From Streptomyces sp. Tu 3180 (lineage in GTDB: Bacteria; Actinomycetota; Actinomycetes; Streptomycetales; Streptomycetaceae): a DNA stretch of 64,000 bases. The translations under genes and the position numbers were made by a program. The stretch covers positions 1,426,001 to 1,490,000 of the forward strand of contig NZ_WOXS01000002.1 in assembly GCF_009852415.1 (NCBI RefSeq), given 5' to 3'. Numbering within the stretch: the stretch's first letter is position 1; each line of letters begins with the position of its first letter. Shown here in pieces: positions 29,318-32,498 of this stretch. Under the pieces are notes generated by a model. The model was not told the origin of the DNA. It did no database searches and was given only the letters and a program-made list of their open reading frames with translations.

Positions 29318-29364
29318 CCCAGCAAAACAGACATAAATACTCTTTACTCGTCAGTCACAGTACG

Positions 29365-29378
29365 TTCGTGATCGCGAA
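29365..29378. promoter_or_regulatory. palindrome in promoter region of ACT-GNAT gene
   Basis: TTCG-TGATCG-CGAA is an almost perfect 14-bp palindrome (one mismatched pair) 24 nt before the start codon, within an A+T-richer segment (29325-29400). It is a candidate operator. Confidence 0.4.
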
Positions 29379-29402
29379 ACACGATTCCTTCACAGTGGCT
29401 GC

Positions 29403-30689
29403 ATGAGCCGAGACATGTCCGAAGTGACCAACACCCGACACGAACACCCCGGGCACCGCCGGTGGGACCCGGCCCGACTCGCCGCGCGGTGCGCGGTCGC
29501 CCTCCGGACACGGTGGGCACGCCGCCACGGCCACGCACCGCCGGCGTCCGATACCGGCGGTGCCCGGCCGCCCTCCGCCGCGGCCGGGGACCGCGTGCTG
29601 TGGCGGATGCGGACGACGGTGAAGGACGAGCCGGGTTCGCTGGCCGCGCTGTGCACGGCGCTGGCCGAGCGGCGGGTCGACATCCTGAGCCTGCAGGCGC
29701 ACCCGCTGGGCGAGGACACCGTCGACGAGTTCCTGCTGCGGGCACCGGCCGGCACGGACCTCACCGCGGCGGTGTCGCGCGCCGGGGGTTCGGACACCTG
29801 GATCGAGCGGGCCGACGCCCACGACCTGGTGGACGCCCCGACCCGGGTGCTGGGGCTGGCCGCCCGCACCGCCCAGGACACGGCGGAACTGCCGTTGGCG
29901 CTGCGCCAGTTGCTCGGCCGGTGCACGATCCGTTCGCTGCCCGCCGCACCGGCCGGCGGACACGGGAGGGCGCCGGCCGTGCCGGTGGAGGGGACCCTGG
30001 AGAACACCGTGATGCGGCTGCGCGCCCCGGAGGGCGGGGTGATCACCGTGGAACGGCCGTACCTGCCGTTCACCCCGACCGAGTTCGCCCGGGCCCGGGC
30101 GCTGGTGGACCTCGACGCCCGGCTCGGCCCGCGGATCCCGCACGGCCGGGACGTGCTCACGCTGCCCGAGGGCAGCGACATCTCGGTGCGCCGGGCGGAC
30201 ACCGACGACCTGCGGGCGGCGCGGGCGATGCACGACCGGTGCTCGGAGCGGACCCTGCGCATGCGGTACCACGGGCCGGTCGGCGACGCGGACCGCTACC
30301 TGAACCACCTGCTCGGTCCGCGCTTCGGACGGACGCTCGCGGCGCAGACCGCCTCGGGCCGCATCGTCGGCCTCGGCCACCTGCTGTGGGACGGCGACGA
30401 GACCGAGGTGGCGCTGATCGTGGAGGACGCCTGGCAGCGCCGGGGCGTCGGCGGTGAACTCCTCGCCCGGCTGGTCGCCATGGCCGTCGAGGCCGGCTGC
30501 GCCACCGTGTACGCCGTGACGCAGGCGTCCAACACCGGCATGGTCGCCGCGATGCGCGGCCTCGGGCTCCCCCTCGACTACCAGATCGAGGAGGGCACCC
30601 TGGTCGTCACGGCCCGCCTGGACGCCGAGCCGGCCGCGGGCCGCCTCCTGGAACTGCGCGGCCGCCGGACGGGGACCGGCCGGCCGTAG
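29403..30689 (+). CDS. ACT-GNAT acetyltransferase (amino-acid-regulated protein acetyltransferase type)
   Basis: A 428-residue protein joining an N-terminal ACT domain (about residues 65-135: LWRMRTTVKDEPGSLAALCTALAERRVDILSLQAHPL) to a C-terminal GNAT domain (about 258-410: ISVRRADTDDLRAARAMHDRCSERTLRMRYHG, ALIVEDAWQRRGVGGELLARLVAMA). The order matches actinobacterial protein-lysine acetyltransferases allosterically controlled by amino acids (AAPatA type, studied in Micromonospora and Streptomyces). A variable Arg/His-rich leader of about 60 residues precedes the ACT domain. The acetyl-CoA loop RRGVGG is intact, so it should be active. No clear ribosome binding site precedes ATG 29403; ATG 29418 is an alternative. 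Confidence 0.9.
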   Translation: MSRDMSEVTNTRHEHPGHRRWDPARLAARCAVALRTRWARRHGHAPPASDTGGARPPSAAAGDRVLWRMRTTVKDEPGSLAALCTALAERRVDILSLQAHPLGEDTVDEFLLRAPAGTDLTAAVSRAGGSDTWIERADAHDLVDAPTRVLGLAARTAQDTAELPLALRQLLGRCTIRSLPAAPAGGHGRAPAVPVEGTLENTVMRLRAPEGGVITVERPYLPFTPTEFARARALVDLDARLGPRIPHGRDVLTLPEGSDISVRRADTDDLRAARAMHDRCSERTLRMRYHGPVGDADRYLNHLLGPRFGRTLAAQTASGRIVGLGHLLWDGDETEVALIVEDAWQRRGVGGELLARLVAMAVEAGCATVYAVTQASNTGMVAAMRGLGLPLDYQIEEGTLVVTARLDAEPAAGRLLELRGRRTGTGRP

Positions 30690-30758: not shown

Positions 30759-31946
30759 TCAGCCCCGCGCCAGTTCCTCCGGCCGGGCCGTCGCACCGGC
30801 CCGCTCCCCCAGGGCCGCGTCCAGGTCGGCCCACAGGTCCTCGACGTCCTCCAGGCCGACCGAGAGCCGCAGCAGCCGGTCGCTCACCCCGGCGTTCCTG
30901 CGGTCGTCGGCGTCGACGATGCGGTGGCTGATGGACGCCGGGTGCTGGATGAGGGAGTCCACGCTGCCGAGGCTCACCGCCGGGGTGACCAGCCGTACGC
31001 CGGCGATCACCGCGTGCGGGTCGCCGTGCACCTCGAAGGAGACCATCGCCCCGCCGATGCGCGGGTAGTGCACGCGGGCCACGCGCGGGTCGGCGGCGAG
31101 CCGGCGGGCGAGTTCGGCGGCGTTCGCGGACGCGGCCCGCACCCGCACCGGCAGCGTCGACAGGCCCCGCAGCAGCAGGTAGCCGGCCAGCGGATGCAGT
31201 ACGCCACCGGTGGCGAACCGCACCTGGCGCAGCCGCCCGGCGAACTCCTCGTCGCAGGCCACCACGCCCGCCAGCACGTCCCCGTGACCGCCGAGGTACT
31301 TGGTCGCGCTGTGCAGCACCAGCCGCGCCCCGTGCTCGGCCGGGCGCTGGAGGACCGGGGTGGCGAAGGTGTTGTCGACGAGCAGCGGCACGGAGCCGCA
31401 GGCGTGGGCGACGGCCCGCAGGTCGACCTCGGCGAGCGTGGGGTTGGCCGGGGACTCGACCAGCACCAGACCGGTGTCCGGGCGCAGCGCGTCGGCGACC
31501 CCGGCCGGGTCGGTCCAGGTGACCTCGGAGCCGAGCAGTCCGGCGGTCAGCAGGTGGTCGCTGCACCCGTACAGGGGCCGCACCGCCACGACGTGGCGCA
31601 GGCCCGTCGCGCCGCGGGCCAGCAGGACGGCGCTGAGCGCGGCCATGCCGCTGGCGAACGCGACCGCCGACTCGGTGCCCTCGAGGCGGGCCAGGGCGGT
31701 CTCGAAGCGGGCGACGGTCGGGTTGCCGAGCCGTCCGTAGACCGGCGGGCCGTCCGGTTCGGCACCGGTGGCGGCGAAGGCGTCGATCCGGCCGGCCTCG
31801 CCGCGGCTGTCGTACGAGGGGTAGGTGGTGGACAGGTCGATCGGCGGGGCGTGCAGTCCCCGGCCGGCGAGGTCGTCGCGGCCCGCGTGCACGGCCTCGG
31901 TGTCGAGTGCTCTCCCGGTGGTGTGCGTGTCCGTGCCCAAGTTCAT
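30759..31946 (-). CDS. trans-sulfuration family PLP enzyme (cystathionine gamma-synthase/methionine gamma-lyase type)
   Basis: A 395-residue Cys/Met-metabolism PLP enzyme. Marks are [10 protein letters not shown] at the N-terminus, the substrate and PLP loops [13 protein letters not shown] and [33 protein letters not shown], the PLP Asp in [15 protein letters not shown] and the Schiff-base lysine in [17 protein letters not shown]. The reaction (synthase, lyase or gamma-elimination) is not decided by sequence alone. An Lrp/AsnC regulator is divergent 60 bp away, a pairing often seen with amino-acid lyases, suggesting control by methionine or another amino acid. Confidence 0.9.
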
Positions 31947-32006
31947 GGACGGAAGGGTGAACACCGACCGGGTCCCGGGAGCCGGTCCCCGTGCTACGTT
32001 CGGCCG

Positions 32007-32498
32007 GTGGCCGAATCTGTCGTACTGGATCCGGTGGACCTCCGTCTGCTGCGGCTGTTGCAGAACGACGCCCGGACGACGTACCGGGAGCTCGCCGCGC
32101 AGGTCGGGGTCGCGCCGTCGACCTGTCTGGACCGGGTGACCCGGTTGCGCCGCTCCGGCGTGATCCTCGGGCACCGGCTGGAGCTGGATCCGGCCAAGCT
32201 GGGACGGGGTCTGCAGGCGCTGCTGTCCGTGCAGGTCAGACCGCACCGGCGGGAGCTGGTGGGGCCGTTCGTGGAGCGGATCCGGGCACTGCCGGAGTCG
32301 CTGACCGTGTTCCACCTGACCGGTCCCGACGACTACCTCGTGCACGTCGCGGTCGCGGACATGGCGGATCTGCAGCGGCTGGTGCTGGACGAGTTCACGG
32401 CGCGGCGGGAGGTGGCGCGGGTGGAGACCCGGCTGATCTTCCAGCAGTGGGACTGCGGGCCGCTCCTGCCGCCTTCGCCCTCAGCACAAAGCGGATGA
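32007..32498 (+). CDS. Lrp/AsnC family regulator
   Basis: A 163-residue feast/famine regulator: helix-turn-helix (about residues 8-60: LRLLRLLQNDARTTYRELAAQVGVAPSTCLDRVTRLRRSGVI) plus RAM ligand domain (about 70-150: VFHLTGPDDYLVHVAVADM). GTG 32007 is preceded by TACGTT (31995-32000) at 6 nt, a -10 giving a leaderless mRNA. It probably regulates itself and the divergent trans-sulfuration enzyme in response to an amino acid. Confidence 0.92.
   Translation: MAESVVLDPVDLRLLRLLQNDARTTYRELAAQVGVAPSTCLDRVTRLRRSGVILGHRLELDPAKLGRGLQALLSVQVRPHRRELVGPFVERIRALPESLTVFHLTGPDDYLVHVAVADMADLQRLVLDEFTARREVARVETRLIFQQWDCGPLLPPSPSAQSG

Follow-up and report, generated by a model that had tools for sequence, protein, structure and literature searches.

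An ACT–GNAT protein acetyltransferase gene of Streptomyces with a conserved GlnR-type promoter box

The stretch of DNA analysed here (the window, 64,000 nucleotides) lies at C2:1426001–1490000 of an 8.63-Mb Streptomyces genome. It contains a protein acetyltransferase gene with its upstream elements, a gene for a PLP enzyme and a gene for an Lrp/AsnC-type regulator (Table 1). For the first of these the original prediction had been an amino-acid-sensing ACT domain fused to an intact GNAT domain, and this domain call holds by Pfam, motifs and model. In a Pfam scan of the protein, the GNAT model PF00583 matches residues 311–388 with 34.1 bits (cut-off 20.7). The ACT domain is borderline by score alone: PF01842 matches residues 71–105 with 26.0 bits, just below its cut-off of 27, in an hmmscan of the protein, and with 28.8 bits, above the cut-off, in a genome-wide search; the order of strands and helices in the predicted structure is that of an ACT domain. 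Both family motifs are found, DXPGXL (as DEPGSL) and QXXGX(G/A) (as QRRGVG), and E335 and E341 of the GNAT domain are invariant in all 12 aligned proteins.

Table 1. Features of the acetyltransferase locus (positions are those of the window; negative numbers count from the ATG)
Feature	Position	Strand	Basis
GlnR-type box TTTAC-TCGTCA-GTCAC (TTTACTCGTCAGTCAC), -60 to -45	29343..29358	+	ortholog conservation, Sven_0867 site
TTCG-N6-CGAA palindrome of the original prediction (TTCGTGATCGCGAA); overlaps -35-like element and GAAAC half-site	29365..29378
Putative -35 element (GTGATC), 17 bp before the -10-like element	29368..29373	+	conserved columns (assignment tentative)
GAAAC half-site, -27 to -23, GlnR b-site consensus GaAAc	29376..29380	+	conservation
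Putative -10 element CACAGT, -12 to -7, a position that suits a leaderless start at the ATG	29391..29396	+	assignment tentative
ACT–GNAT protein acetyltransferase ORF, 428 aa, ortholog (by sequence) of SvePatA/Sven_0867 and SCO1293	29403..30689	+
ACT domain, aa 64–136, DEPGSL (aa 75–80) at the beta1–alpha1 loop	29592..29810	+	Pfam PF01842, model topology
Middle region, aa 137–250, common to free-standing membrane-ACT proteins; no Pfam matches	29811..30152	+
GNAT domain, aa 252–408, acetyl-CoA motif QRRGVG (aa 345–350)	30156..30626	+	Pfam, alignment
Cys/Met-metabolism PLP enzyme, convergent with the acetyltransferase gene; start codon not settled	about 30759..31901	-	PF01053, 309 bits
Lrp/AsnC-type regulator, gene divergent to that of the PLP enzyme; start codon uncertain	31992..32498	+	PF13404, PF01037

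Structural comparisons point in the same direction. A sequence search of the PDB gives 4nxy as best match (3.3e-6), a structure of the GNAT domain from S. lividans Pat. Foldseek was run with an AlphaFold model built from 32 sequences, whose confidence is moderate at best (mean pLDDT 61) and whose middle region is unreliable; it places 4u5y first at E 9.9e-9 (GNAT of S. lividans Pat together with an Acs domain), followed by E. coli PatZ and mycobacterial Rv0998. A by-eye comparison of the 21 PF01842 and 81 PF00583 places in the genome finds both models only in this frame. The one further match to the whole protein in the genome covers only the GNAT part of a 1040-residue open frame, which by its size is perhaps a Pat-type enzyme.

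The gene is an unexceptional member, present in one copy, of an established enzyme family. The predicted likeness to actinobacterial acetyltransferases is borne out by the AAPatA, 150 ACT–GNAT proteins in actinobacteria (Lu et al. 2017, PMC6434083), to which it is of the same kind. The amino-acid assay that had been proposed for it has been done on 24 members of that family with 20 amino acids: all 24 are said to acetylate an acetyl-CoA synthetase in vitro, with asparagine stimulating the enzymes of 16 Streptomyces and one Kitasatospora, and cysteine those of seven from other genera (PMC6434083, Table 1). The effect of asparagine in vitro is modest, from 2.23 to 3.92 nmol NADH per min per ml (PMC6434083). 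The window genome has one AcsA over the model cut-off (990 bits; C2:4528286–4530139), with a PKTRSGK motif.

A match to the window protein was found in all 24 same-genus relatives, and orthologs from named genomes were taken as the best 80 of at least 574 confirmed relatives (79 Streptomyces records and one Kitasatospora). One ortholog, L032 (genome G015), is alone among 107 proteins compared in having D109, K112, P113, E114 and C139, the residues named for SvePatA (PMC6434083), and the 16-mer upstream of its gene, TTAACCCGTCAGTCAC, agrees in every letter with the GlnR ChIP-chip site published for Sven_0867; L032 is therefore taken to be Sven_0867 or a near copy of it. The window protein is 74% identical to L032 over residues 28–412, and by sequence comparison its gene appears as the one-to-one Streptomyces ortholog of SvePatA, a member of the asparagine group, in single copy here. 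Mutation of K112 and P113 of SvePatA as a test of the asparagine site had no effect (PMC6434083). In L032 these residues fall within the linker that precedes the ACT domain (Pfam match at 126–160), outside the DTPGSL loop that begins at residue 130, and this location is offered as a reason for the negative result.

Upstream sequences were compared over 104 loci, namely the window and 103 ortholog loci (L011–L033 and L040–L119). To place the blocks, a 41-base consensus was matched next to an ATG and its best hit taken; the anchored ATG opens the ortholog reading frame in all 104 loci, and its distance to the block is constant in 101, with a shift of 1 nt in three. Mean information per column is 1.61 bits from -61 to -6, 0.46 from -90 to -62 and 0.16 from -130 to -91. 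The box at -60, which was not used for anchoring, reads TT[TA]AC-n6-GTCAC in 96/104 orthologs, while the remaining eight score six of the eight consensus positions; as background, only 3 of 5616 places tested between -130 and -77 reach at least 7/8. Further downstream, G[AC]AAC at -27 and nAnnnT at -12 are present in 104/104 orthologs (CACAGT in 99), a conservation that is partly by construction, since columns -41 to -1 anchored the loci. In the window the GAAAC half-site follows GTCAC by two 11-bp steps and is thus in 11-bp phase with the box. No ribosome-binding site was seen by eye before the window ATG, which, together with the kept distance of the ATG to the block, makes a leaderless start at this codon likely. 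A regulon built on the 18-bp core is rejected: of 20 matches to it in the genome only this promoter has fewer than 3 mismatches. Overlapping matches to the same core fall at G000:C2:6489961–6489982 and 7131315–7131336, where GTTCGTGATCACGAAC, a perfect 16-bp palindrome, is found.

The GlnR motif of Pullan et al. (2011, PMC3087709) is GTnAC-n6-GTnAC, and an earlier S. coelicolor motif given there is gTnAc-n6-GaAAc. The window box has seven of the eight fixed positions of the former, shares 14 of 16 letters with the Sven_0867 site and stands at the position of that ChIP-chip site; the strict motif is found at the box in none of the 104 orthologs, the first base being T instead of G. According to the same study, Sven_0867 is induced 6.7-fold by nitrogen starvation and repressed 5.2-fold by ammonium, does not respond in a glnR mutant and carries a GlnR ChIP-chip peak (PMC3087709). 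Its S. coelicolor counterpart SCO1293 is described in PMC3073908 as induced after nitrogen limitation, and is listed in PMC5826349 as changed 2.3-fold in an ECF sigma mutant. Because the box of ortholog L032 is identical to the GlnR site of Sven_0867, whose induction needs glnR, the window gene is most likely made in nitrogen starvation and its product stimulated by asparagine.

Taken together, the locus probably encodes an asparagine-sensing acetyltransferase of the SvePatA type, induced by GlnR in nitrogen starvation and translated from a leaderless transcript. The domains, motifs, orthology and conserved box were read here from the sequence. The ACT domain would sense an amino acid, most likely asparagine, and raise the activity of the GNAT domain, which would acetylate acetyl-CoA synthetase and lower its activity, and perhaps act on other targets too. 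When nitrogen runs out, GlnR at the direct-repeat box 45–60 bp upstream would, most likely, switch transcription on. The result would be a primed brake, an enzyme made in nitrogen starvation that works hardest when asparagine is at hand. That the SvePatA behaviour holds in the window strain is inferred, as are the in vivo targets, the physiological logic and the leaderless start. Against this explanation count the first base of the window box, which is T, as in the 96 orthologs with this form, and not G; the use of related half-sites by other OmpR-type regulators; the modest effect of asparagine in vitro; the K112 and P113 mutations that changed nothing; an N-terminal hairpin, probably present in SvePatA and absent here; and the ACT score just below the cut-off.

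Two published lines meet in one gene, since for the S. venezuelae ortholog GlnR-dependent induction and in vivo binding are described in one study (PMC3087709), and acetylation of Acs with stimulation by asparagine in vitro in another (PMC6434083); Sven_0867 is thus both an asparagine-activated acetyltransferase and a GlnR target. Joining the lines would give the enzyme a setting, as an acetate-activation brake made in nitrogen starvation and primed for asparagine. In the open-access papers searched none was found that joins GlnR control with an asparagine-activated ACT acetyltransferase in Streptomyces: Lu et al. (PMC6434083) and its commentary mention neither GlnR nor nitrogen, the review PMC8556138 does not mention GlnR, and Pullan et al. 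(PMC3087709) mention neither ACT domains nor acetylation.

The direct-repeat box might instead be read mainly by another regulator of the OmpR type, such as MtrA, AfsQ1 or PhoP. Half-sites of the GTnAC type serve OmpR-type regulators besides GlnR (MtrA, AfsQ1), and MtrA, AfsQ1 and PhoP bind related GTnAC repeats. The SCO1293 protein is reported to be more abundant in phosphate sufficiency and is described as under negative PhoP control. We nevertheless consider this reading unlikely: in PMC3087709 the S. venezuelae ortholog shows GlnR occupancy in vivo, and its induction is lost in a glnR mutant. Co-regulation by GlnR and another OmpR-type regulator is possible.

The original prediction had located transcriptional control at a TTCG-N6-CGAA palindrome in the promoter and had suggested a link with cysteine or methionine through the adjoining enzyme gene. 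That a repressor acts at this palindrome and that the enzyme is tied to Cys/Met metabolism via its PLP neighbour is highly improbable. The palindrome is indeed present, it overlaps the likely -35 element, and its right arm runs into the GAAAC half-site. The motif is commoner in the window than in dinucleotide shuffles (5 against a mean of 0.38, with 0/100 shuffles reaching 5), but the genome has 106 copies of it, where the reversed pattern has 52, and so it is somewhat over-represented and not special to this promoter. At the homologous site TTCG is found in 98/104 orthologs and the core CGTGATCACG, which favours the palindrome, in 82; the full motif is found in 16 and CGAA (at -28) in 17, with CGCAA in 81. 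The CGTG arm is not kept either, for in four Catenulispora-like genes the place reads CCTGATC followed by AT, AC, TT and AT. As an operator, therefore, the palindrome fails against the box (96/104) and the half-site (104/104); the promoter is conserved as if under transcriptional control, as had been expected, though by other elements.

The Cys/Met link is weak. A PLP enzyme gene of this kind does adjoin the acetyltransferase gene; its best NCBIfam model is methionine gamma-lyase, at 299.9 bits against a cut-off of 549.7. When the neighbouring window proteins were searched by tblastn against the 80 named loci at 1e-20, the PLP enzyme was found in 73, where its gene lies downstream, the Lrp-type regulator in 73, a DUF885 protein in 78 and a PhoD-like protein in 77 (L065 and L080 end at a contig edge). 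Five loci (L067, L069, L082, L087 and L105), in which the PLP and Lrp-type genes were not found, keep the acetyltransferase and DUF885 genes. The PLP gene converges with the acetyltransferase gene and diverges from that of the Lrp-type regulator; it is more likely to form a unit with the regulator gene, and is not thought to be part of the acetyltransferase unit, although the conserved neighbourhood may mean some link. AAPatA members outside Streptomyces respond to cysteine, but only the seven from other genera, and the Streptomyces members tested by others responded to asparagine only.

SCO1293 and Sven_0867 are annotated as N-acetylglutamate synthase, an enzyme of arginine biosynthesis, in PMC3073908 and PMC3087709. 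Acetylglutamate kinase and glutamate N-acetyltransferase genes stand in the same GlnR-dependent list in the latter, and the window protein has a weak match to the N-acetylglutamate synthase model NF005921 (23.8 bits). The genome, however, has a separate gene for this model at C2:4617996, with 286 bits (cut-off 180) against about 23 for the window gene, so the annotation is unlikely to describe the role of the protein; family members acetylate Acs in vitro (PMC6434083), the best fold matches are protein acetyltransferases, and a role in arginine synthesis is very unlikely. Translational attenuation by a short leader, an open 12-codon frame with GTG at 29368 and a stop TGA that overlaps the ATG in the window, is rejected as scarcely credible, since the frame is unlike coding sequence in that its third positions are the most conserved (1.63, 1.50 and 1.74 bits by codon position over the first 11 codons) and in 3/104 orthologs is out of step with the ATG by 1 nt.

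Around the SvePatA-type acetyltransferase a wider family can be recognised, in which the N terminus varies. A hydrophobic stretch (19-residue Kyte–Doolittle mean > 1.5) is present at the N terminus of 63/103 orthologs and absent in 40, the window protein included; the comparison covers the window, L011–L032 and L040–L119, without L033, the truncated L035 and the distant L034. The stretch is predicted to form a hairpin, of which L112 and L116 keep one helix. In an AlphaFold model of L057, whose confidence is moderate at best (mean pLDDT 58), it appears as two helices at residues 20–43 and 50–75, and from hydropathy and this model it is predicted to be a membrane anchor. On a quick tree the hairpin label needs 11 changes, but no more than 2 are required by the starred branches, which leaves the number of losses uncertain. 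The hairpin is present in L032, the likely SvePatA; the window protein is without it, and its behaviour may therefore differ. In Lu et al. (PMC6434083) the words membrane (apart from blotting) and transmembrane are not used of the protein.

Of 296 genomes of the class searched, 182 gave matches with E of 1e-15 or lower, though in many cases the match covers no more than the GNAT part. Three layouts are seen: the Streptomyces type, soluble ACT–GNAT proteins, and proteins with a membrane hairpin, an ACT domain and the middle region but no GNAT domain. The GNAT-less layout was found in families f19 and f3, the latter of which we take to be Catenulispora-like, and among the matches listed at least 11 f19 genomes hold both a soluble ACT–GNAT and a membrane-ACT protein. 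The membrane-ACT proteins (L176–L181, L195, L201–L208, L120, L121, L125 and L036) are about 280–350 residues long (L195 is longer); each has a hairpin of two helices at the N terminus, a single ACT module and a middle region that is conserved. In Catenulispora-like L121 the membrane-ACT gene is immediately preceded by what looks, by eye, like a gene for a GNAT protein of 203 residues (L121:7323–7934, minus strand), and in L120 the frame upstream of the membrane-ACT gene ends like that of L121. At L190:723–2600 (minus strand; G058:C270) a 626-residue open frame encodes a TetR–ACT–GNAT fusion, with Pfam scores of 34.1 bits for TetR_N (over the cut-off), 26.4 for ACT (just under) and 43.8 for GNAT; L194 (G276), in which Pfam finds only the GNAT part, groups with it in the ACT-middle and GNAT trees.

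Both trees were midpoint-rooted and have several long branches. In the ACT-middle tree (60 sequences; 8 duplicate, nearly identical or truncated rows left out), ten fused, Streptomyces-type proteins form one group (99/83), which is joined to three f3 membrane-ACT proteins (100/95) and stands apart from a 22-row soluble branch; the soluble L187 adjoins the fused group (92/75), and the membrane-ACT proteins overall fall into more than one group (4 changes). The fused group also stays intact in the GNAT tree of 37 (96/90), where the deeper branches are weak. The window type is thus apart, in both trees, from the soluble branch, which is taken as kin of the cysteine group. The Streptomyces protein may have arisen by fusion, or the GNAT domain may have been lost in the Catenulispora-like line.

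In the relatives each gene was given the highest score among several possible starts, some of which fall within the ACT domain in the soluble set. On this score a GlnR-type box of 7/8 or more stands at -60 in 13/23 membrane-ACT rows (one of them the fused L122; 10/23 score lower) and in 1/24 scored soluble ACT–GNAT rows. Outside this count are L038 and L209 (7/8 and 2/8), L183, the TetR fusions L190 and L194 and the duplicates L197–L200, and L214 gave no score. A G[AC]AAC-type half-site is also found upstream of several free-standing membrane-ACT genes, and in most of those of f19 the CAAC half-site stands one base off. In 12/25 soluble ACT–GNAT genes (L186, L211, L212, L214–L220, L222 and L224) the 150 bp before the start contain GTAGC-n6-GTAAC, which resembles the GlnR-type box and is not claimed as one, because single-gene shuffle values are only 0.02–0.085 and the genes are related.

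A bolder joint reading of the hairpin and of these relatives is tentative, and on balance doubtful. The ancestor of Streptomyces PatA would have been an amino-acid sensor anchored in the membrane and under nitrogen control, whose membrane-ACT module was united with a GNAT domain in the Streptomyces ancestor; the free-standing membrane-ACT proteins would dock soluble ACT–GNAT enzymes at the membrane via ACT–ACT contacts; GlnR-type boxes about 60 bp upstream would control much of the membrane-ACT family; and several Streptomyces lineages, that of the window included, would have freed the enzyme by deleting the hairpin. New here, from sequence comparison, are the apparent hairpin in 63/103 orthologs and not in the window, and the apparent grouping of the ACT half with free-standing membrane-ACT proteins. 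The claims on the predicted hairpin, on its loss and on the wider membrane-ACT family can be tested. Worth following are the proposed union of asparagine activation with GlnR control and the predicted hairpin common to free-standing ACT proteins.

Among known systems, the window protein is closest to the asparagine group of AAPatA (SvePatA/Sven_0867 and ScoPatA; PMC6434083), with which it shares single-copy ACT–GNAT organisation, both motifs and orthology; it differs from the likely SvePatA in lacking the N-terminal two-helix hairpin. The cysteine group (AmiPatA, MaKat/Micau_1670) has the same ACT–GNAT order, but the 22 soluble proteins taken as its kin (L123 and 21 from f19) form the separate branch in both trees, and AmiPatA has Ser17 after the loop Asp where the window protein has Glu. 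Compared with GlnR regulon promoters (PMC3087709), the window box is at the homologous place and begins with T as in Sven_0867 itself, while the in-phase GAAAC at -27 is an extra. S. lividans Pat (4u5y) and the cAMP-regulated lysine acetyltransferase Rv0998 (4ava/4avb) have a protein acetyltransferase GNAT fold, as in the window protein, and in Rv0998 a ligand-binding domain is likewise joined to it; however, the regulatory part is an ACT domain here and a CoA-ligase-like or cyclic-nucleotide domain there. AcuA of Saccharopolyspora erythraea is likewise a protein acetyltransferase, reported to be positively regulated by GlnR and to act on Acs and glutamine synthetases, but it is described as a single-domain GNAT protein without ACT, whereas the window protein has an ACT domain.
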